Shown: positions 10,429 through 34,152 of the stretch, one piece after another
Layout: each line of letters opens with the position of its first letter
How positions within the stretch are numbered: the first letter of the stretch is position 1
From: Burkholderiaceae bacterium 26
GTDB taxonomy: Bacteria > Pseudomonadota > Gammaproteobacteria > Burkholderiales > Burkholderiaceae
Assembly: GCA_000955795.1 (NCBI GenBank)
Contig: JYOB01000005.1
Coordinates: 1 to 34,689, forward strand
Direction of reading: 5' to 3'
DNA length: 34,689 bases
The notes under the pieces: model-generated
The model's input: the letters and a program-made list of their open reading frames with translations, nothing else
Told to the model about the DNA's origin: nothing
Database searches by the model: none
Translations under genes and position numbers: made by a program

Positions 10429-14658
<4,230 letters not shown>

Positions 14659-14917: not shown

Positions 14918-16777
14918 ATGAAGCTCACACGCAAGCAGATCGCCGTTGGTGCGGTCGCCCTGGTCGTTGCCGGTGCGGCGGTGGTGCAGATGGTCTGGCA
15001 CCCGTTTGGCCGCACGCGCGCGCTGCACGCTCGCCAGGTCCAGCTCGACCTGACATATCCCGATGCCCTGATCGACAGCCAAAGCCTGTCGCAACTGCCG
15101 CGCGACGTGCTGCGCGTGCCGCTGCTGCGCGATGTGCTGACCGAAGATTTCGTCGCCTATTACGAAGGCAACGAAGACCGGCTCTCGGTGGCTGGTGCGC
15201 TGCGCCGCCTGGCGTACGAGCAGAAGCTCGATCTGGCCGAGACGGTGCTCAAGCACGTGTTTGACGAGCCCGCCCGCGTGATGCTGTGGCGTGGCCCCGA
15301 CGACAAGCTGCGCTACTGGGTGCTCTCGATGCAGCGCAACGGCTTGGCGAAGGCGCTCGAAGCCGTGGCCACCGTCGCTACGAGCGACACGCAGCTCACC
15401 AAAGTCGCCGATGGGCTCGGCGATTCCGGCGCGCCGGTGTATGCGCTCAGGCTCTCGGCCACGCGCTCGATCCTGATTGCCAGCAAGGGCGATCGGCTGA
15501 TCGCGCTGTCCGAGCCGGGCATCCTGCTGGACAAGGACGGCAAGCCGATTTCCAAGCAGGCGAGCGCGCTGGCGGCGCTGCTGTCGGACGATGCCGGCAA
15601 GCGCAACGTGCAAGGTACGGCGTACGCGCTGCCTGCGCAGGAGCCGACGGGCCATCACGTTGTGGTGAGCGCCAACTATCTGTCGTTTGGTTATCAGCAG
15701 TACTTTCCCGGCATTGAAGCGCTGCGCTTCGACTTCGGTTCGGGCAAGGACGGCGGGGGCAACGGCTGGCAGAGCGCCGCGCTTATCGACCCGAGCCGCC
15801 TGACCGGCAAGTGGGATAACGCAGGCCTGTGGCGCGCACTCCCGTCTGACCCGGCCGCGTGCGCCACGCTGCCGGTCGACTGGAAGGCCGCGGGCACGCT
15901 GCTGAAGTCCGTGGCCGGCGACGCCAAGGAGGTCAGCGAAGCCGCCGCGCACGTTGGTGACGCGTTTGCGGGCCCGGCTGCAGCGTGCTGGTACGGCAAG
16001 TCGTCGCTGGTCGCGCCGCTGTTCGTGGCGAAGCTGTCGTCGGCGTCGCAGGCCGAGGCGGTCAAGCCGGCCCTGGCAGCGCTGTTCGGTCAGATCGTTG
16101 GGTCGTACGAAGCCAAGGCGCAGGCGGACGACAAGTCCGGCCCGTACAAGCGCCTGCCGGTGACGACGAAGCAAGGGCCCGCCAACGCCACGCTGTGGCA
16201 GCGCCCGGTGAGCGCGCGTTACGGTACGGCGCAATCGGCTGATGCTCCGTTTGCGGCGCAGCTGTCGTCGGATCGCTACTTCCCCGTCACGCTGGCGATT
16301 GCTGGAGACGTGGTGGTGTTCTCGCCGGACGCGCGCCTCGTCGATGATGCATTGGCAGTGCTCGCCAAGCGCTTCCCGGCAGTGGCGGATAGCCTGCCGA
16401 AGGACAAGACCGATCGCATCGTGCTGACGATGACGCCCGCATCGCTCGCGCCGCTCGTCCGCCGCGAAGCCGGTGCCGCGCTGCCGGCCGACCAGGAAGC
16501 GGTGTTCCTCAACGCCGCACAGACGCATCTGTTTCCGAAGCTCAAGGCGTTGTCGCGGTACGCGCCGGTGTCGCTGGCGCTGGATGGTGGTGTGCCGTCG
16601 TCGCGTGGCTGGGTGCCGGTGACGTGGCTCTCAATCGGACGCGGTCTGCCTGCCGGTGGCGATGGTACGCCGCCGTCGGCTGACGCGGCTGCAGCTGCAG
16701 CGTCTGCCCCGTCCGCCGATGCGCCGACCGCAGCGGTTGCGGCTCCCGCTTCCGAAGACAACACCAGCACGCAATGA
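14918..16777 (+). CDS. yfaA: DUF2138 family exported protein (YfaA-like)
   Basis: This 619-residue protein of unknown biochemical function is recognised as DUF2138 from its overall sequence and from its place as first gene of a yfaA-T-S-Q-P-type operon. A single N-terminal hydrophobic segment (about 8-27) after MKLTRKQ suggests a signal anchor, with the bulk in the periplasm. The last ~45 residues are Ala/Ser/Pro-rich and look disordered. No catalytic motif is evident. There is no clear Shine-Dalgarno before the ATG at 14918. The upstream 14710-14917 stretch has a TATGAT at 14812-14817 but no -35 at proper spacing, so the operon promoter is not pinned down. The stop overlaps the next start (ATGA). 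Confidence 0.85.
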
Positions 16778-17478
16778 CGCTGCGCGCCCAGGCCGCCGCG
16801 CTGAACCGCCGCCGTTGGTTGACGGCGGCGGGCGCCTGCCTGCTCGCGCCGTCCGTACATGCCTTGTCGGGCTGGGCCGACACGGCACCTGCGGATGCCG
16901 ATGCCCTAACGCCCGATCAATCCAGCGTGTTCCGGGCGTGGTTCGTCCGCATCGTCAACGAGCAACTCCGCCAAGGCCCGACGCCGCGCTGGACGCACCG
17001 CGACTGCGCCGGCCTTGTGCGCTTCGCTGCAGGCGAGGCGCTGCGCACGCACGACGCCCGGTGGCTGCGCGCCAACGGCATGCGCGATGCGGAATCCGCG
17101 CGACACCTGCCGCCCGAGCTGAATCTCACGCCTGCCCAGCGCACGCTCACGCAGCGGTGGGCACGCTTCGATGGCAGTACCGGGGCGTACGTCTCGGCGC
17201 TGGGCCTCATCCAGCAGAACAGCCGGTTCATCGCCAAGGACGTCAACCAGGCGCTCCCGGGCGATCTGCTCTTCTTCGATCAAGGCGACGACCAGCATCT
17301 GATGATCTGGATGGATCGCTACATCGCTTACCACACCGGCACCGTCACCCGCACCGACAACGGCCTGCGCGCGGTTCCGGTCTCTGAACTGATGCAATGG
17401 AAAGACTCGCGCTGGCAGCCGCAGAGCGGCAACCCCAACTTCATCGGCGTGTTTCGTCTGGCCTTTTTGACACGGTAG
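16774..17478 (+). CDS. yfaT: DUF1175 family exported protein (YfaT-like), NlpC/P60-like
   Basis: This 234-residue protein belongs to DUF1175 by resemblance and synteny. The N-terminus has an arginine-rich motif ([10 protein letters not shown], 11-20) followed by a short hydrophobic stretch ending near ALS, resembling a Tat signal, although a Sec signal is also possible. The mature part carries RDCAGLVRF with C78, then PGDLLFF (162-168) and DQHLMIWM with H175, then YHTG with H187. Spacing and the GDLLFF block resemble NlpC/P60 cysteine peptidases, which cleave peptidoglycan peptides. Activity is inference. Its ATG overlaps the yfaA stop by 4 bp, and the next gene starts 8 bp after its stop, so expression is coupled. 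Confidence 0.85.
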
Positions 17479-17486
17479 AAAAACTC

Positions 17487-20400
17487 ATGCGCAACCGTTG
17501 GCTGTCGTTCAATCTCGTTGCCGCCGTCAGTCTGATGGTGCTGGCGTTCGTCGCTTCGGTGCCGGCAGCGCAAGCGGCCGATGCTCCGGAAACGCCGAAC
17601 CCCACGTTGTTCGACGTGCCGGGCAGCGGCTACGAGCCGTTCAAGGGGCAGCCATTCTTCCTGTTGTCGGATGCGAGCTACGGCACCGATCAGGAAGCGA
17701 TGGTCCGCCTCGAGGCGCCGGGCCGCGAGTACAAGGACGAACTCTCCCGCTACGGCGGCGCGGACATCCTCGTCTACCGCGTGCCGCAGCCGTTGGAATT
17801 CTTGAAGGCTCAGAAGAACCTGCACCGCATCGACGTCAAGGCCAACTACACGGGCGAAGGCCTGGCCAACACGCTCGCCTATCTGTGGGACAACTGGACG
17901 CGCCAGGCCCGCCGCGCCTGGCAACGCGTGCTGTCGTTCGCCACGCGCAGCAAGGCCGTGGAGACCGCGCCGCAGTTCAGCATGGGCGATCAGATGACCG
18001 CGCCCACGCGCTTCTCGAACAACCCGCAATACGCACCGCTCAAGGGCTACGAACTGCTGGGCCGCTTCCGCTACCCGATCTGGGATGCCAAGCCCATCGC
18101 ACCGCCCAAGGACGTGAAGCTCGAGGGCAGCAGCAGCGAATGGATGCCGCAGAACGCCGGCAACGTGATGATTCCGGTTGGCAAGCTGCCGGCGGGTCTG
18201 TACATCGTTGAAGCCGTGATCGGCGCGTACCGTGCGCACACGCTGCTGTTCGTGTCGGACACCGTGGCCGTCACCAAGGGCACTTCGCAAGGGATGATGG
18301 TGTGGACGGCCGAGCGCAAGAGCGGCAAGCCCGTTGCCGGCGCGTCGGTGAGCTGGACCGACGGTGTGGGCGTGCTCGCCTCCGGCACCACCGAAGCCGA
18401 CGGCACGGCCGACCTGCGCCACGTGTCGCCTGAGCGCAGCTACGTGATCGGCAACGACCGCGCGGGCGGCGTGTTCATCTCCGAGAATTTCTATTACGAC
18501 AGCGAGATCTACAACACCAAGCTGTACGCCTTCACCGATCGTCCGTTGTATCGCCCGGGCGACGAAGTGAACGTCAAGTTCATCGGCCGCAACTTCAAGA
18601 ACGCAACCGAATCGACCGTGCCGGCTGCCGGCGACATCAAGCTGCAAGTGCTCGACCCGAATGGCGCGCCGGTGGCCACGTCCACCACGCGTCTGGCGGG
18701 CGAGACCGGCGCCGACGCGCGCTTTACCCTGCCGACCAACGCACCGGCCGGCGGCTACTCGCTGCGCTTTGATTACAACGGCGGCACCTATGGCGGCGCT
18801 TTCCGCGTGGCCGAATACATCAAGCCGCACTTTGACGTGAACCTGTCGCTGGACAAGGCGAGCTACGGCACGGGCGAAGCGGTCAAGGGCAAGATCAGCC
18901 TGCGCTATCCGGATGGCAAGCCGGTCAAGAACGGCAAGGTATCGGTCAGCCTGCGCGCGCAACAGGTGACGATGGTGGAGGGCGAGCTGCGTTACGCGGG
19001 TCTGTTCCCCGTCAAGCTGGAGCAGCAGGAGCTGACCACCGACGGCGACGGCAACGCCAAGCTGGAACTGCCCGCCGCCAAGGAACCGAGCCGCTACGTC
19101 GTGACCGTGTTTGCCAACGACGGCGCAGCGTACCGCGTGAAGGTCACGCGCGAATTGCTGATCGCACGTGGCGCCACGCCGTACAAGCTGTCGACCACGT
19201 CGAACTTCACCACGCCGGGGCAGAACGTCTCGTTCACGCTGACGCCGATGCCGGTTGTCGGTGGCGCAAGCGGAGCCAGCGCCCCGCCCGCGAAGTGGGA
19301 TCTGGTGCGCCTGGAAACGCGCACCCGCACCGAAGGCACGCTGGCGCCGGATGCCAAGGGCAACGCCACGTTCCCGGTCAAGTTTGACCAGCCGGGCTCG
19401 TACACGCTGTCGGTGCGCGATGCCGCCGGCAACCTGCTTGCCGCTTCGAGCCACTGGGTGGCCGGCGATGGCGTGCAGACCGTGCCGGGCAATATCGAAA
19501 TGGTGTTCGACCGCGATCGCTATCAGATTGGCGACACGGCCGAAGCGCTGATCACGTTCCCGCTGCCGGTGGATGATGCGCTGCTCACGCTGGAGCGCGA
19601 CAAGGTCGAGCGCCACGCGCTGCTCACGCGCGGTGGCGAATGGCTGAGCCTGCAGAAGGTCACGCCGTCGCAATACCGCGCGCGCATCAAGATCGGCGCG
19701 GAGTTCGCACCCAACATGACGTTCTCGGTGCTGTACGTGCGCGACGGCGACATGGTGTTCCAGAACGCCGGCATCGTCGTCACGCAACCCACGCTGGACT
19801 TGGGCGTCCGTGCCGACAAGGCCGTCTATGCCCCGGGCGAGACCGTCACGCTGGACCTGACCAGCGCGCTGGCGGGCAAGCCCGTGCCGGCCAACCTGAC
19901 CGTGTCGGTGGTCGACGAAATGATCTACGTGCTGCAGCCAGAGGTGGCGCCCAGCATCGTCGATTTCTTCTACCACCCGCGCCGCAACAGCGTGCGCACC
20001 ACGTCGAGCCAGAGTTTCATCAGCTACGACCTGGCGCTGGCGTCGCTGCCGGGCAAACCGGGTGGCACGTATGGCCGCCACAACGAGCGCGGCGTGAAGG
20101 TGCTGGAGCGGCCCCGCCGCGACGAGCAGGACACCGCCGCCTGGGTCGCCAACCTGCAGGCCGGCGCCGATGGCCGCGCCCGCATGACGTTCAAGATGCC
20201 GGATTCGCTGGCGCGCTGGCGCATTACCGTGCGCGCGGTGTCCACCACCGGCGCATCGGACGGCATCGTCGGCCAGCGCACCGCGAGCATCCGCTCCGAC
20301 AAGCCGCTGTACCTGAAGTGGACCGGCCCGCAACGCTTCCGCGAAAGCGATCAGCCGCGTCTGGACATGGTCGCCTTCAACCAGACCGACAAGGACATCA

Positions 20401-22271
20401 CCGCCGACTGGATCGTTTCCGGCGCTGGCCTGAACATCAACCAGCGCGTGACGCTCAAGCGCGGCGCCAACTATCTGCGTGCGCCCGTCACGGCGCTGCA
20501 GGCGGGTGTCGTGAATGCCGAGCTGAAGCAGGACGACAAGGTTTCGGACCGTCTGCAGACCACGCTCAAGCTGGATGCAACGGGCTGGCTGGCCGACCGT
20601 GAAAACGTCGTCCCGCTCACGCAGTTGCAGGGCACGCGCTTGCCGCTTGGCTTGCCGGCTGATGCGCGCGACGTGCGCCTGCGCGTGGTCGGCAACACGG
20701 CCAGCCAGTTCGCCCGCGTGGCGGATGACCTGATCGAGTATCCGTACGGTTGCGCCGAGCAGACCGCCAGCCGCCTGATCCCGCTGGCACTTGCACAGCA
20801 GAGCCTGGCTGCCACCGGCACGCGCGTGGGTGACGGTGGCCCCGCAGGCACGCAAGGCGTCGACGCGCTGCTGCGCACGCAGCGCCAGCGTCTGGCACTG
20901 CTGGCCGGCACCAACGGCACCTTCGGCTGGTGGGGCGAGCTGACGACGAGCAGCGCGCTGATCACGTCGTATGCGTATTACGCGGATTGGCTCGCCAGCC
21001 GCTCGGTCGGCATCAGCCTGCCGGCAGACAACTGGAAGCAGGTGCTCGAAGCCTACAAGCGCACCAGCCAGAACGAGCCGCTGTTGCATCGCGCGCTCGC
21101 GCTGTGGTTTGCCAACGAGATGGGCCTGCCGGTGGCGACGCCGCTGTCGGGCGTGGCCAACGAGCTTGCACCTAGTGGCGGTAAGGCGGCCAAGGCCCCG
21201 GCCGATGCCGATCCTGCAGCGGGTGACAGCCTGATCTTCGTGGCGCCGGATTCGCCACGCGGCCGTCAGGTCGCGACAGTGCTGACGGCACAGCTGATGC
21301 GCCAAGTCGGTCAGCCGGTGCCGGAAGCGCTGGTCTCCGCCGACATTGCTGCACGCAACGCGCTCGCCGCCAACAACTCGCCGCTGGTGCAGAGCCTGTT
21401 GCTGATGGGCGGTGGCCGCTCGGCTGCCGACCCGGCGCCGTTGCTGGCCCGCGCGAGTGCCGCCATGCCGACGATGGATCGCGCTATTGCGCTGGTCTGG
21501 CTGCAGAAGGGTCTGGGCGGCTTGCAAGGCGCCAGCGTTGCCACCGTCCAGCCGGCCGTTTCGGCTGGCGGCTGGCAGGCGACGCGCTCGCCGGTGGGTG
21601 TGCCGACGTGGCGCTGGACCGGCGCGCAAGTGCCCGCCGCACTGGACCTGACGGTGGCTCCGACCGACGTGACCACGCAATCGGCCATCGTGTCGTACCG
21701 CAGCCGCGCGGCTGAGGCCTCCAAGCTGCCGATCACGGTGGAGCGCAAGCTGTACCGTCTCGAGCCGATCGACAGCGCGCCCGCCAAGGCCGATCCGAAG
21801 GCGCCCAAGCAGCCGGCGGCCGATGCCAGCAGCAGCGGCATCGCCTTTACCGCCAAGCCGGTCAAGTCGGGCGACACGCTCGACAGCAACGCGCTCTACG
21901 TTGACGAGGTGGTGCTGACGCCGCGCCAGGGCACGTACCGCTACGGCCTGGTCGAAGTCCCGCTGCCGCCGGGCGCCGAAGTGGAAGCCACCACTTGGGG
22001 CATCCAGATCGACGGCTTGAAGGGCGAACCGAACGAAGGCAACGGCGCGCAGCCGTTCGAGCGCAAGGCCGCATATGAAATGGGCCAGCTCTCGTATAAC
22101 CAGCCGGTGCCCGCACTGGAGCGCCCGACCGTGCTGCGCCAGCTTGTGCGCTTCTCGCTGCCGGGCCGCTTCGCGCTGCCGCCGGTGCGCTACTTCCGCA
22201 TGTACCAGCCGGAAGCCAAGGCGTTCCAGGGCGACGGCAAGACGGCCAGCTATCCGTTCAAGGTGGAGTGA
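17487..22271 (+). CDS. yfaS: Alpha-2-macroglobulin family protein (YfaS-like), thioester motif present
   Basis: This is a bacterial alpha-2-macroglobulin, a family thought to trap proteases in the periplasm. I chose the ATG at 17487, 8 bp after yfaT, because a clean signal peptide follows (MRNRWLSFNL to an AQA cleavage site near residue 30). That gives 1594 residues; an upstream in-frame ATG inside yfaT would put 30 residues before the signal. The MG2 signature DRPLYRPGDE is at 351-360. A probable bait region, rich in Arg, Lys and Ser, spans about 818-884. The A2M domain follows (W886 onward). A thioester motif YGCAEQT places Cys1089 and Gln1092, and the helical thioester domain with GTFGWWGE comes next. 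The C-terminus resembles a receptor-binding-type domain. Confidence 0.93.
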   Translation: MRNRWLSFNLVAAVSLMVLAFVASVPAAQAADAPETPNPTLFDVPGSGYEPFKGQPFFLLSDASYGTDQEAMVRLEAPGREYKDELSRYGGADILVYRVPQPLEFLKAQKNLHRIDVKANYTGEGLANTLAYLWDNWTRQARRAWQRVLSFATRSKAVETAPQFSMGDQMTAPTRFSNNPQYAPLKGYELLGRFRYPIWDAKPIAPPKDVKLEGSSSEWMPQNAGNVMIPVGKLPAGLYIVEAVIGAYRAHTLLFVSDTVAVTKGTSQGMMVWTAERKSGKPVAGASVSWTDGVGVLASGTTEADGTADLRHVSPERSYVIGNDRAGGVFISENFYYDSEIYNTKLYAFTDRPLYRPGDEVNVKFIGRNFKNATESTVPAAGDIKLQVLDPNGAPVATSTTRLAGETGADARFTLPTNAPAGGYSLRFDYNGGTYGGAFRVAEYIKPHFDVNLSLDKASYGTGEAVKGKISLRYPDGKPVKNGKVSVSLRAQQVTMVEGELRYAGLFPVKLEQQELTTDGDGNAKLELPAAKEPSRYVVTVFANDGAAYRVKVTRELLIARGATPYKLSTTSNFTTPGQNVSFTLTPMPVVGGASGASAPPAKWDLVRLETRTRTEGTLAPDAKGNATFPVKFDQPGSYTLSVRDAAGNLLAASSHWVAGDGVQTVPGNIEMVFDRDRYQIGDTAEALITFPLPVDDALLTLERDKVERHALLTRGGEWLSLQKVTPSQYRARIKIGAEFAPNMTFSVLYVRDGDMVFQNAGIVVTQPTLDLGVRADKAVYAPGETVTLDLTSALAGKPVPANLTVSVVDEMIYVLQPEVAPSIVDFFYHPRRNSVRTTSSQSFISYDLALASLPGKPGGTYGRHNERGVKVLERPRRDEQDTAAWVANLQAGADGRARMTFKMPDSLARWRITVRAVSTTGASDGIVGQRTASIRSDKPLYLKWTGPQRFRESDQPRLDMVAFNQTDKDITADWIVSGAGLNINQRVTLKRGANYLRAPVTALQAGVVNAELKQDDKVSDRLQTTLKLDATGWLADRENVVPLTQLQGTRLPLGLPADARDVRLRVVGNTASQFARVADDLIEYPYGCAEQTASRLIPLALAQQSLAATGTRVGDGGPAGTQGVDALLRTQRQRLALLAGTNGTFGWWGELTTSSALITSYAYYADWLASRSVGISLPADNWKQVLEAYKRTSQNEPLLHRALALWFANEMGLPVATPLSGVANELAPSGGKAAKAPADADPAAGDSLIFVAPDSPRGRQVATVLTAQLMRQVGQPVPEALVSADIAARNALAANNSPLVQSLLLMGGGRSAADPAPLLARASAAMPTMDRAIALVWLQKGLGGLQGASVATVQPAVSAGGWQATRSPVGVPTWRWTGAQVPAALDLTVAPTDVTTQSAIVSYRSRAAEASKLPITVERKLYRLEPIDSAPAKADPKAPKQPAADASSSGIAFTAKPVKSGDTLDSNALYVDEVVLTPRQGTYRYGLVEVPLPPGAEVEATTWGIQIDGLKGEPNEGNGAQPFERKAAYEMGQLSYNQPVPALERPTVLRQLVRFSLPGRFALPPVRYFRMYQPEAKAFQGDGKTASYPFKVE

Positions 22272-22278
22272 TCTCGCG

Positions 22279-24009
22279 ATGCGTTCCCGCCTGCTCGCGC
22301 GTGGTGTGCTGACCAGCCTATTCTGGGCTGCCGGCACCTGCGCGCTTGCGGGGCAGGCTGGGCACGCCATCGCCGCGCCGGTCGGCCAACCGCTTTCGCA
22401 ACTGCGATATGCCGCTTTGCAAGGCGACGAAGCCAAGCTCTGGCAATTCGGCGCTGACCCGGCCGGCGGTATGCCGCAAGCCACCGCCTTGCCGCGCGAC
22501 GCCGAAACACCGCTGGGCAGCGTCTGGAAGCTCTTCGTCTACAGCTACCTCGTCTCGCGCCGCATCAGCACGCCCGACTACACGTGCCACGGCAACGACG
22601 CCGAAGAGGTCTACTGCTGCACCGCCGGCAACAGCATTGACCGCGAGCGCGCACTCATCCAATCGTGCGGGCGCTATTTCGAGCCCGCACGCCTCGGCCT
22701 TGATCGCGCGGATTGGCGCCGCTTCTGGCAGCAAGCCGGATCGCCCGCATGGTTGCGCGACCTGCGTGCCATGCAACCGACGCATCGCGTGCCGGTCGCC
22801 GATCTGCTCAGCGCGTTGCGGTCCGTCCCGGCCGATGGCCGCGAGACCGCGGCGCAAACGCTCGTCTCCGTGCTGACCGTCGGGCGTGGCGAGGGCACGG
22901 TGTCGGATTTCGGCGGCCTTCTGCGCGCCAAAACGTGGACGATGCCCGACCCGCAGCGCCCTGGCGCGTCGATCGGCGGCGCCGCGGGATGGCTGGCCGA
23001 CGGCACGCCCGTCTGGCTGGGCGGCGCCGGATCGAGCAACCAAGTGCTGGCCGCCGCCGCGCCGCGCCTCACGCCGTTGATCGAGCAGACGCCCGTGCCC
23101 GACGACGATGCCTGCGTCGCGGTGGACTTCTTCGCGCGTTACCCGATTCGGGAGGTGCGCGATGCCAGCGGCCGGCCGGTCGCCCCCGGTCGCCTCGAAG
23201 GCCGCTACGCCGTGCACTTCGTCAATGGCAATACGCTGCCGATCGAAAGCAAGGGTGAATTGACGCTCGCGCGCCAGAACAACACGCCGGTCATCACGGG
23301 CCGCCTGGGCATGAACGATTACGTGGCGCGCGTGGTCGAGCGCGAAGGCGAACTCGCCGAGCCACAAGCCGCGCGTGCGTTGGCCGTGGCGGCGCGCAGC
23401 TATCTCGTGCAGCACGCCACGCGCGACAAGGGCTGCTACCGCATCGCTGACAGCTCGCGCACGCAGCGCGTGCTACCGCGCCCGCCGCTGGCCGCCGCAC
23501 GCAACGCCGCCGAATTTACCGACACGCTGGTCCTGACCGGCCAGTCTGTGCAGTACCACGGCACCATCAGCGCGCGCGGCCAGATGAGCTGGACCGCCGC
23601 GCGTGCCGCCGCTCAGCGGGGCCAGGGGTTTGACGCGATCCTTGCGCAGTGGTGGCCGCAGGCGACGCTCACGTCGTTCCAGAGCCCGGTGGCGGGGGAT
23701 TGCTCACCCGTGGCGGGCGCGCAGCAGTGGCTGCAGGCGCGCGCGCCGGGTTGGTCCGCGCGCTTGGGCGCCGAGCCCGGTTACGAGACACCGCCGCTGC
23801 CCGCCGTGTGCGTCGTACAAGAGGGCCGCCCGTACGCCGATGCGCGCCGCAACCGGCTCTACGTGCATCGGCTTGCCACCGAGGAGGACCGCATCGCGCT
23901 GACGCACGAATATCTGCATCTCGCCTTTGCGCGGCACCCGCGCGGGCAGGACGAACAGTTTGTCGAGGCGATGGCGCGTCGCCTGATCCGAGGGGAGGGT
24001 TTGCTGTGA
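22279..24009 (+). CDS. yfaQ: DUF2300 exported protein (YfaQ-like) with PBP-like, SpoIID-like and HExxH segments
   Basis: This 576-residue protein starts at the ATG 7 bp after the yfaS stop, giving a signal peptide (about 1-32). An in-frame extension upstream would be antisense-like sequence inside yfaS. Three segments are visible. Residues about 75-255 carry SVWK (81-84), SCG (129-131) and KTWT (218-221), in the order and rough spacing of the SxxK, SxN and KTG motifs of penicillin-binding proteins. Residues about 340-440 resemble SpoIID, with YVARVVERE (348-356) placing E356 at the catalytic Glu position, then ALAVAARSYL and a downstream LTGQSVQYHG. The C-terminus has HEYLH (543-547) and downstream acidic residues E559 and E563, as in zinc metallopeptidases. 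All three activities are inferred from motifs. Confidence 0.88.
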   Translation: MRSRLLARGVLTSLFWAAGTCALAGQAGHAIAAPVGQPLSQLRYAALQGDEAKLWQFGADPAGGMPQATALPRDAETPLGSVWKLFVYSYLVSRRISTPDYTCHGNDAEEVYCCTAGNSIDRERALIQSCGRYFEPARLGLDRADWRRFWQQAGSPAWLRDLRAMQPTHRVPVADLLSALRSVPADGRETAAQTLVSVLTVGRGEGTVSDFGGLLRAKTWTMPDPQRPGASIGGAAGWLADGTPVWLGGAGSSNQVLAAAAPRLTPLIEQTPVPDDDACVAVDFFARYPIREVRDASGRPVAPGRLEGRYAVHFVNGNTLPIESKGELTLARQNNTPVITGRLGMNDYVARVVEREGELAEPQAARALAVAARSYLVQHATRDKGCYRIADSSRTQRVLPRPPLAAARNAAEFTDTLVLTGQSVQYHGTISARGQMSWTAARAAAQRGQGFDAILAQWWPQATLTSFQSPVAGDCSPVAGAQQWLQARAPGWSARLGAEPGYETPPLPAVCVVQEGRPYADARRNRLYVHRLATEEDRIALTHEYLHLAFARHPRGQDEQFVEAMARRLIRGEGLL

Positions 24010-24809
24010 AGAGTGGGATCACGCGCTTGGCGCTCGGGGCTGCCACGCTGCTGCTGGCCGCTTCGGCGCTGGCTGAGCCGGTGGCCGATCTGGAGGGGCC
24101 CATCGGCGGCTGGCGCAACAGCAAGCTGACCAACGAGCTGGAGCAATACACCGCTGCGTATCCGAAACCGCCCGTGGACCGTGGCGCGCAAAAATACCGC
24201 ACGCTCATCGCCGGACGCATCCGCGCGGTCGGCAAGCAGCGTCGCCCGCCGGTACTTGTCGTCAACGGCAACGCCATGCCGCTGTATGGAGATGGCGAAG
24301 GCCGCTTCGCGCGCCCCTGGGCGTTCGGCCCGGGCTCGAACAGCGTCGAAATCGTCAGCCCCGACGGCCAGTCGCGCCAACGCTTGCAGTTCTACGAGGC
24401 CGACACCACCAAGACGTCGGCCAAGCTGCGCGCCATCCTCACGTGGGACGACCCGCGCGCAGAGGTCGACATGCACGTCATTTCGCCGATTGGCGACCAC
24501 GCGTTCTGGGCGCAGCCGCTCCTGTCCGACGGCGGCGGGCTCGACGTGGACAGCGTCGACGGTGCTGGCCCCGAGATTTTCTCGACTGCCGCGCCGCGCC
24601 CCGGCGTGTGGCTGTTCTACGTGAACTACTGGGGCAACTTCAACGCCGGCGGCTACAACTTCGACGAAAAGGCGCACGACCGCGATCTCATCACCGCGCA
24701 ACTGACGCTGATCTATAACGAGAACACGCCCAACGAGCGGCGCGAGTTCGTCAGCGTGCCGCTGCGCAAGATCGGTGAGCTGGCGCTGATGAAATCCATC
24801 CGCTTCTGA
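24006..24809 (+). CDS. yfaP: DUF2135 exported protein (YfaP-like), first copy
   Basis: This 267-residue protein starts at GTG 24006, which overlaps the yfaQ stop (GTGA). A GGGAGGG at 23993-23999 gives it a good ribosome binding site. A signal peptide is clear (cleavage near ALA, residue 23). The C-terminal half from about residue 145 is DUF2135: TWDDPRAEVDMHVISP, then GGGLDVDSVDGAGPEIF. Upstream lies a Gly-Trp-Arg-Asn motif (GGWRN) and the block VVNGNAMPLYGDGEGRF, which read like an Ig-type domain. No function is known. The downstream paralog shares all these blocks, so the pair arose by duplication. The fully coupled arrangement ties it to the macroglobulin operon. Confidence 0.87.
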   Translation: MKSGITRLALGAATLLLAASALAEPVADLEGPIGGWRNSKLTNELEQYTAAYPKPPVDRGAQKYRTLIAGRIRAVGKQRRPPVLVVNGNAMPLYGDGEGRFARPWAFGPGSNSVEIVSPDGQSRQRLQFYEADTTKTSAKLRAILTWDDPRAEVDMHVISPIGDHAFWAQPLLSDGGGLDVDSVDGAGPEIFSTAAPRPGVWLFYVNYWGNFNAGGYNFDEKAHDRDLITAQLTLIYNENTPNERREFVSVPLRKIGELALMKSIRF

Positions 24810-24819
24810 CGTGACGCAC

Positions 24820-25662
24820 ATGATGCCTTCCACTTTCCGCCTTGCCGCTGCCATCGCGCTTGCCACATCTGCGGCCGCTGGCGGCGTGCTCGCGCAAACC
24901 GACGCCGGGAATATCGAGATCACTGCGCCGCTCAACGGCTGGCGCAATTCGGCGGGCGACGAATCCCGCTACACACAAGACGTGCATTACCCGGCGGTGT
25001 CGGTGTCGACGCCGCAAGGGCAGGGCATCGCGTCGATGATTGCCGGGCGCATCCGCAACCAGCCGAAGACTGCCGCAGCAGCGGACGAAAGTAAGCCGCG
25101 TCGCCGTCGTGGCGCCGATGGCTCCTCGGTGGGCACGCTGATCGTCAATGGCGTGGCCATGCCGCAGCGCATCGAGGCCGACGGTACGTTCTCGCGTCCG
25201 TACGCATTTGGCGCGGGCAGCAATAGCGTCGAGGTGCGCAGCGCGCGCGGCGACGCCAAGCGCGTGCAGTTCTACGACAGCTACTCCGGCAAGCAGCGTC
25301 CGCGTTTGCGCGTTGTCCTGTCGTGGGACACCGACGGCACCGACCTCGACCTGCATGTCATCTCGCCCGATGGCCAGCATGCCTGGTACGGCAACCGCGT
25401 GGTCCAGAACGGCGGCGCGCTCGACGTGGACGTCACCACCGGCTATGGTCCTGAGATCTATTCGAACCCGGCCCCCGTGCCGGGAACGTATCTCGTCTAC
25501 GTGAATTACTACGGCAGCGGCAATGACCGCAGCGCGATCACGACCGCCACCGTCACCATCATCACCGACGAGAACACGCCGTCCGAACGCCAGCAGACGT
25601 TTGTCGTGCCGATGCGCAAGGCCGGCGATCTGACGCTGCTACGCAGTTTCACGATGAAGTAG
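24820..25662 (+). CDS. DUF2135 exported protein, second copy
   Basis: This 280-residue paralog of the preceding gene shares the GWRN motif, the VNGVAMP block, and the DUF2135 core from about residue 168 (SWDTDGTDLDLHVISPDGQ, then GGALDVDVTTGYGPEIY). It has a signal peptide (cleavage near VLA, residue 25). It differs from the first copy by a basic/Ala insert (AAADESKPRRRRGADGSS) and a shorter segment before the last strands. The start is uncertain: GTG at 24811, one base after the previous stop, and ATGs at 24820 and 24823 are all in frame, and none has a good Shine-Dalgarno. I prefer 24820. It is the last gene that clearly belongs to the operon by function. Confidence 0.85.
   Translation: MMPSTFRLAAAIALATSAAAGGVLAQTDAGNIEITAPLNGWRNSAGDESRYTQDVHYPAVSVSTPQGQGIASMIAGRIRNQPKTAAAADESKPRRRRGADGSSVGTLIVNGVAMPQRIEADGTFSRPYAFGAGSNSVEVRSARGDAKRVQFYDSYSGKQRPRLRVVLSWDTDGTDLDLHVISPDGQHAWYGNRVVQNGGALDVDVTTGYGPEIYSNPAPVPGTYLVYVNYYGSGNDRSAITTATVTIITDENTPSERQQTFVVPMRKAGDLTLLRSFTMK

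Positions 25663-32025: not shown

Positions 32026-34152
<2,127 letters not shown>

Follow-up and report, generated by a model that had tools for sequence, protein, structure and literature searches.

YfaQ of the yfa operon as a probable three-domain cell-wall enzyme with a separable mini-zincin-like C-terminus

What does a DUF2300 protein do directly downstream of a bacterial alpha-2-macroglobulin gene? The question is raised by yfaQ, located at 22279–24009 (+) in a 34,689-nucleotide stretch of contig JYOB01000005.1 from Burkholderiaceae bacterium 26 (assembly GCA_000955795.1), hereafter the window, whose nearest named relatives are Ralstonia species. The translated open reading frame has 576 residues, for which we determined the domain boundaries, fold similarity, conservation and gene order. 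YfaQ is probably an exported cell-wall enzyme made of a penicillin-binding protein (PBP)-type serine domain, a SpoIID-type lytic transglycosylase domain and a mini-zincin. Its N-terminal helix (residues 3–24) reads by eye as a signal peptide, and a signal peptide is also predicted for E. coli YfaQ (PMC12282094). Conservation was counted in 224 proteins of 480–700 residues, taken from a set of 241 (P0001 and 240 found) that spans Burkholderiaceae, Pseudomonas and Enterobacteriaceae. From the same 241, 58 sequences were hand-picked for alignment; the alignment omits the odd sequences P0010, P0122, P0198 and P0239, which the 224 include.

The middle domain (residues about 273–471; 23095–23691, +) is the part that the initial annotation had recognized, reading it as a SpoIID/LytB-type segment with Glu356 at the catalytic position. 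The blocks it quoted are all found in place: YVARVVERE at 348–356, EPQAARALAVAARSYL at 361–376, IADSSRTQRV at 389–398, AARNA at 406–410 and LTGQSVQYHG at 419–428. Pfam PF08486 matches YfaQ with an E-value of 6.9e-6 (27.0 bits, cut-off 23; 30.7 bits in the genome search), and the SpoIID resemblance is beyond chance. With NCBIfam TIGR02669 (SpoIID_LytB) the score is 23.6 bits, below the cut-off of 83.3, and a single-sequence search of the PDB with YfaQ returned no match. The profile of the 58 family members placed three SpoIID chains at the top of the PDB search (E = 0.0016, 0.023 and 0.026), followed by one unrelated chain at E = 0.66. The segment at about 436–460 pairs with the end of SpoIID at about −2 to −3 bits, which is not significant alone, and the structural match, in which the SpoIID fold is found, covers residues 275–468; thus, the similarity reaches past the quoted blocks.

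Glu356 (codon 23344–23346, +) aligns with residue 101 of chain 5txu, as counted by hand from the profile alignment, and so corresponds to Glu101 of C. difficile and Glu88 of B. subtilis SpoIID. The E101A variant of the C. difficile enzyme is reported to be inactive (PMC6221140). A Glu occupies this position in 222 of the 224 YfaQ proteins, the remaining two being gapped, so profile, fold and family-wide conservation together back both the assignment to SpoIID and the identification of Glu356 as the catalytic Glu. The residue is not universal across the SpoIID/LytB family: it is missing in two of ten other SpoIID-type proteins of the phylum, and a chlamydial SpoIID is described as depending on Asp48 (PMC6635528). 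GHG occurs in four of the 224 proteins. Our pattern GHGxG[YMF]S, which we take to be a motif of the C-terminal half of SpoIID, is no fair test, because just two of the ten SpoIID-type proteins match it.

The same annotation held that a glycan-cleaving or glycan-binding role would be new, and this part does not stand. Pfam already assigns SpoIID (by our count by eye, precomputed in 119 of 120 and 107 of 120 relatives in two listings), and E. coli YfaQ is described as bipartite, with a transpeptidase-like part followed by a SpoIID-like part (PMC12282094, mSystems 2025). The SpoIID idea was therefore right but in print, and the annotation had overlooked the flanking domains at 37–272 and 472–576. 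PMC12282094 further reports that yfaQ deletion gives wider cells, links the deletion to mutants of mepK, mepS, nlpI and further envelope genes, and places YfaQ in the turnover or assembly of peptidoglycan as a probable role. E. coli YfaQ (b2226, DUF2300) belongs to the same family as the window protein, with 40.5% identity over 513 residues, and is encoded in the same operon; its Ser60, Glu334 and His520 correspond to Ser81, Glu356 and His543 of the window protein.

The N-terminal domain (residues 37–272; 22387–23094, +) has the PBP/serine beta-lactamase fold, with class D beta-lactamases, PBPs and BlaR-type sensors as its structural relatives. SxxK and K[ST]G are the motifs of this fold. The former is present as Ser81-x-x-Lys84 (22519–22530, +); it is invariant in the 58 aligned sequences, and Ser81 and Lys84 are each found in 220 of the 224 (the misses being P0119, P0132, P0133 and P0136). 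K[ST]G was not found in any of the 224 proteins, all of which carry KTW, here Lys218-Thr219-Trp220 (22930–22938, +). KTW in place of KTG also distinguishes YfaQ from class D beta-lactamases and the BlaR1/MecR1 sensors; compared with the latter, it has no membrane protease part, the domain order is reversed and a SpoIID domain lies in between.

The C-terminal domain (residues 472–576; 23692–24006, +) is mini-zincin-like and carries the HExxH motif His543-Glu544-Tyr-Leu-His547 (23905–23919, +). The next helix (559–571) contains Glu559 and Glu563 (23953–23967, +), candidates for the third zinc ligand. HExxH is kept in 220 of the 224 proteins, as are both Glu residues. P0015, P0130, P0138 and P0141 lack the motif, and because these same four are gapped at Glu559 and Glu563 too, their C-termini look missing or out of frame. 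The position of His553 is His in 200 and Tyr in 20 proteins. Judged from the structural model, 17 of the 17 fold matches listed for this domain are metallopeptidases or metallopeptidase-like. The third ligand of minigluzincins is stated to be a His (PMC6925264). Compared with members of that group (abylysin, 4jiu; selecase, MJ1213), the YfaQ domain contains a pair of conserved Cys residues (475 and 511), and it is either fused to cell-wall domains or encoded beside a macroglobulin gene.

The domain also exists as a stand-alone protein. When 398 genomes of the phylum were searched for DUF2300, 15 genomes scored above the cut-off, nine with the long protein and six with the last part only; among 369 genomes of the class, one further short form (G461) was found besides the window's own protein. 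The stand-alone forms are 35–46% identical to the window's domain, and seven of seven carry HEYxH-x11-E-x3-E, as does P0244 from a Magnetococcales metagenome-assembled genome. In tblastn searches with the window proteins, yfaP follows the short gene in all seven loci, and yfaS directly precedes it in all five loci whose sequence extends to that side (L027, L028, L029, L030 and L040); L031 and L032 end before it. A SpoIID match was found in none of the seven genomes, one of which (G125) is 78% complete. Since the short gene follows yfaS with no SpoIID domain found, the C-terminal domain is an independent unit. As a control for the DUF2300 search, one of 14 control genomes, E. coli alone, was positive. 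G009, G457 and G702 fell below the Pfam cut-off and were dropped as DUF2300 carriers. A whole-protein search of the 369 genomes gave three matches; the match in G580 (E = 2.1e-4) covers residues 119–194 and contains two stops.

From these features we infer export, three activities, a metal and partners for YfaQ. The SpoIID domain would cut glycan strands with Glu356 as general acid/base, as in SpoIID, and the PBP-type domain, with SxxK and the unusual KTW, most likely binds stem peptides. In the 105-residue mini-zincin, zinc would be held by His543, His547 and either Glu559 or Glu563, and the most likely target of this domain is a peptide bond of the wall or of a partner protein. YfaQ would work beside two products of the same operon, the alpha-2-macroglobulin YfaS and the NlpC/P60-like YfaT. 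The NlpC/P60 match of YfaT (DUF1175; yfaT, 16774–17478, +) is sub-threshold, with E = 0.0014 in the window and 0.00038 in E. coli; the window protein and its E. coli, G461 and G045 counterparts all have the Cys of the DCAGL/DCASL motif (DCAGL at residues 77–81 in the window) and the His of QHLM. C. difficile SpoIID is reported to act after SpoIIP has stripped the peptides (PMC6221140). YfaT could do such a preparing step before cutting by the SpoIID domain, as SpoIIP does; this role is tempered by PMC10318531, which calls DUF1175 an inactive peptidoglycan binder.

That same statement on DUF1175 would fit YfaQ being a wall-binding or sensing protein, in which the PBP-like fold and the SpoIID fold serve to hold stem peptide and glycan while catalysis has been lost or is vestigial. 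The shortness of the SpoIID domain points the same way, as do KTW and SCG, which deviate from the serine transferase catalytic consensus, KTG being usual in that fold. However, Ser81, Lys84, Glu356 and HExxH are near-unbroken across the 224 proteins, which exceeds the needs of a binding fold, and the loss of the catalytic Glu in two of the ten other SpoIID-type proteins shows that this position is able to change. We therefore regard a non-catalytic YfaQ as unlikely. A chance occurrence of HExxH in a metal-free helical tail is very improbable: HEYxH and both Glu residues are kept in the 58 aligned sequences and in every stand-alone form at 35–46% identity, and the modelled fold matches listed, 17 of 17, point to metallopeptidases or proteins like them.

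The gene order of the stand-alone forms (after yfaS in 5/5, before yfaP in 7/7) and the absence of a SpoIID match from their genomes (0/7) argue for a different history, in which the zinc-protease-like domain is an ancestral core serving YfaS (it might cut the YfaS bait region, for instance, or be caught in the trap), and the two cell-wall domains were added afterwards as an anchor to peptidoglycan. However, the tie to YfaS rests on gene order, which may mean co-regulation only; the short forms could equally well have lost two domains of a longer ancestor; and the incompleteness of G125 weakens the count of genomes. We consider this history possible but rather doubtful. A bolder proposal, to which we give little credence, casts YfaQ as a soluble periplasmic damage sensor with BlaR1/MecR1 logic: the PBP-like domain with KTW would read stem peptides, the SpoIID domain would read or cut glycan, and the mini-zincin would cut the YfaS bait region or another partner, so that wall damage arms the trap; the stand-alone forms would then represent the original protease that partnered YfaS.

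The three-domain enzyme that we favour differs from its closest structural counterparts. It has the fold and Glu101 in common with C. difficile and B. anthracis SpoIID (5i1t, 5txu, 4rwr), but the YfaQ domain is shorter and flanked by two other domains; unlike SpoIID, YfaQ occurs in non-sporulating bacteria. SleC of C. difficile (9h68), a spore germination enzyme according to the entry title, has other partner domains. YfaQ also gains a third, separable domain; the words 'zinc' and 'metallo' do not occur in the main text of PMC12282094. This domain and its tie to yfaS were found in none of the papers covered, and the supplements of that paper may list them. No literature on the name DUF2300 was found, and among the matches listed we found no functional study of yfa genes besides yfaQ (judged by title and abstract), none of bacterial alpha-2-macroglobulins of the YfaS branch and none linking a mini-zincin to SpoIID. 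For the phenotype of the E. coli deletion (PMC12282094), there are now specific residues to test. If the constant neighbour of YfaS joins a wall-cutting enzyme to a small zinc protease, the operon can be tested for a role as a wall-repair or protease-defence unit; the frequent pairing of yfhM with the PBP1C gene (PMC4498604) offers a parallel.

Pfam DUF2300 matches YfaQ twice (22591–22938 and 23578–23940), and the two matches fall in parts that are folded differently in the model, the first PBP-like and the second SpoIID/HExxH. The Pfam model probably needs splitting.

The window contains the operon in the order yfaA-yfaT-yfaS-yfaQ-yfaP. It begins with yfaA (DUF2138; 14918–16777, +), and yfaS (17487–22271, +) encodes MG2, bait-region and A2M domains with a CAEQ motif; its start was set by us at 17487, and the frame contains another ATG upstream, at 17397. 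A gap of 7 bases separates yfaS from yfaQ, and the likely GTG start of the first yfaP copy (DUF2135; 24006–24809, +) overlaps the yfaQ stop. E. coli MG1655 has the same yfa order, with yfaS annotated as a pseudogene. Full-length yfaQ was found in 75 of the best 80 of 312 loci in named genomes, and yfaA, yfaT, yfaS and yfaP are all nearby in 70 of these 75. The other five lack a full-length frame because the match, 58–1030 bases from the sequence end, lies too near it to contain the gene start.

Some minor observations concern the surroundings. A second yfaP copy (DUF2135; 24811–25662, +) forms a tandem pair with the first at 24006–25662, compared with a single yfaP in E. coli MG1655. The yfaP (L029, 8530–9597) of G045, a genome of the same phylum that carries the short DUF2300 form, has an N-terminal LprI lysozyme-inhibitor-like match before DUF2135, which is barely above the cut-off (22.3 versus 22 bits). 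Within 6196–34152, the operon is preceded by rpoB-rpoC (ending at 14658) and followed by recQ, an MFS gene and fusA (starting at 32026); the usual order there is an rpoBC-rpsL-fusA stretch, inside which the yfa operon sits. Finally, a 1718-residue open frame runs antisense to yfaS (17328–22484, −); codon use at high G+C content probably accounts for it.
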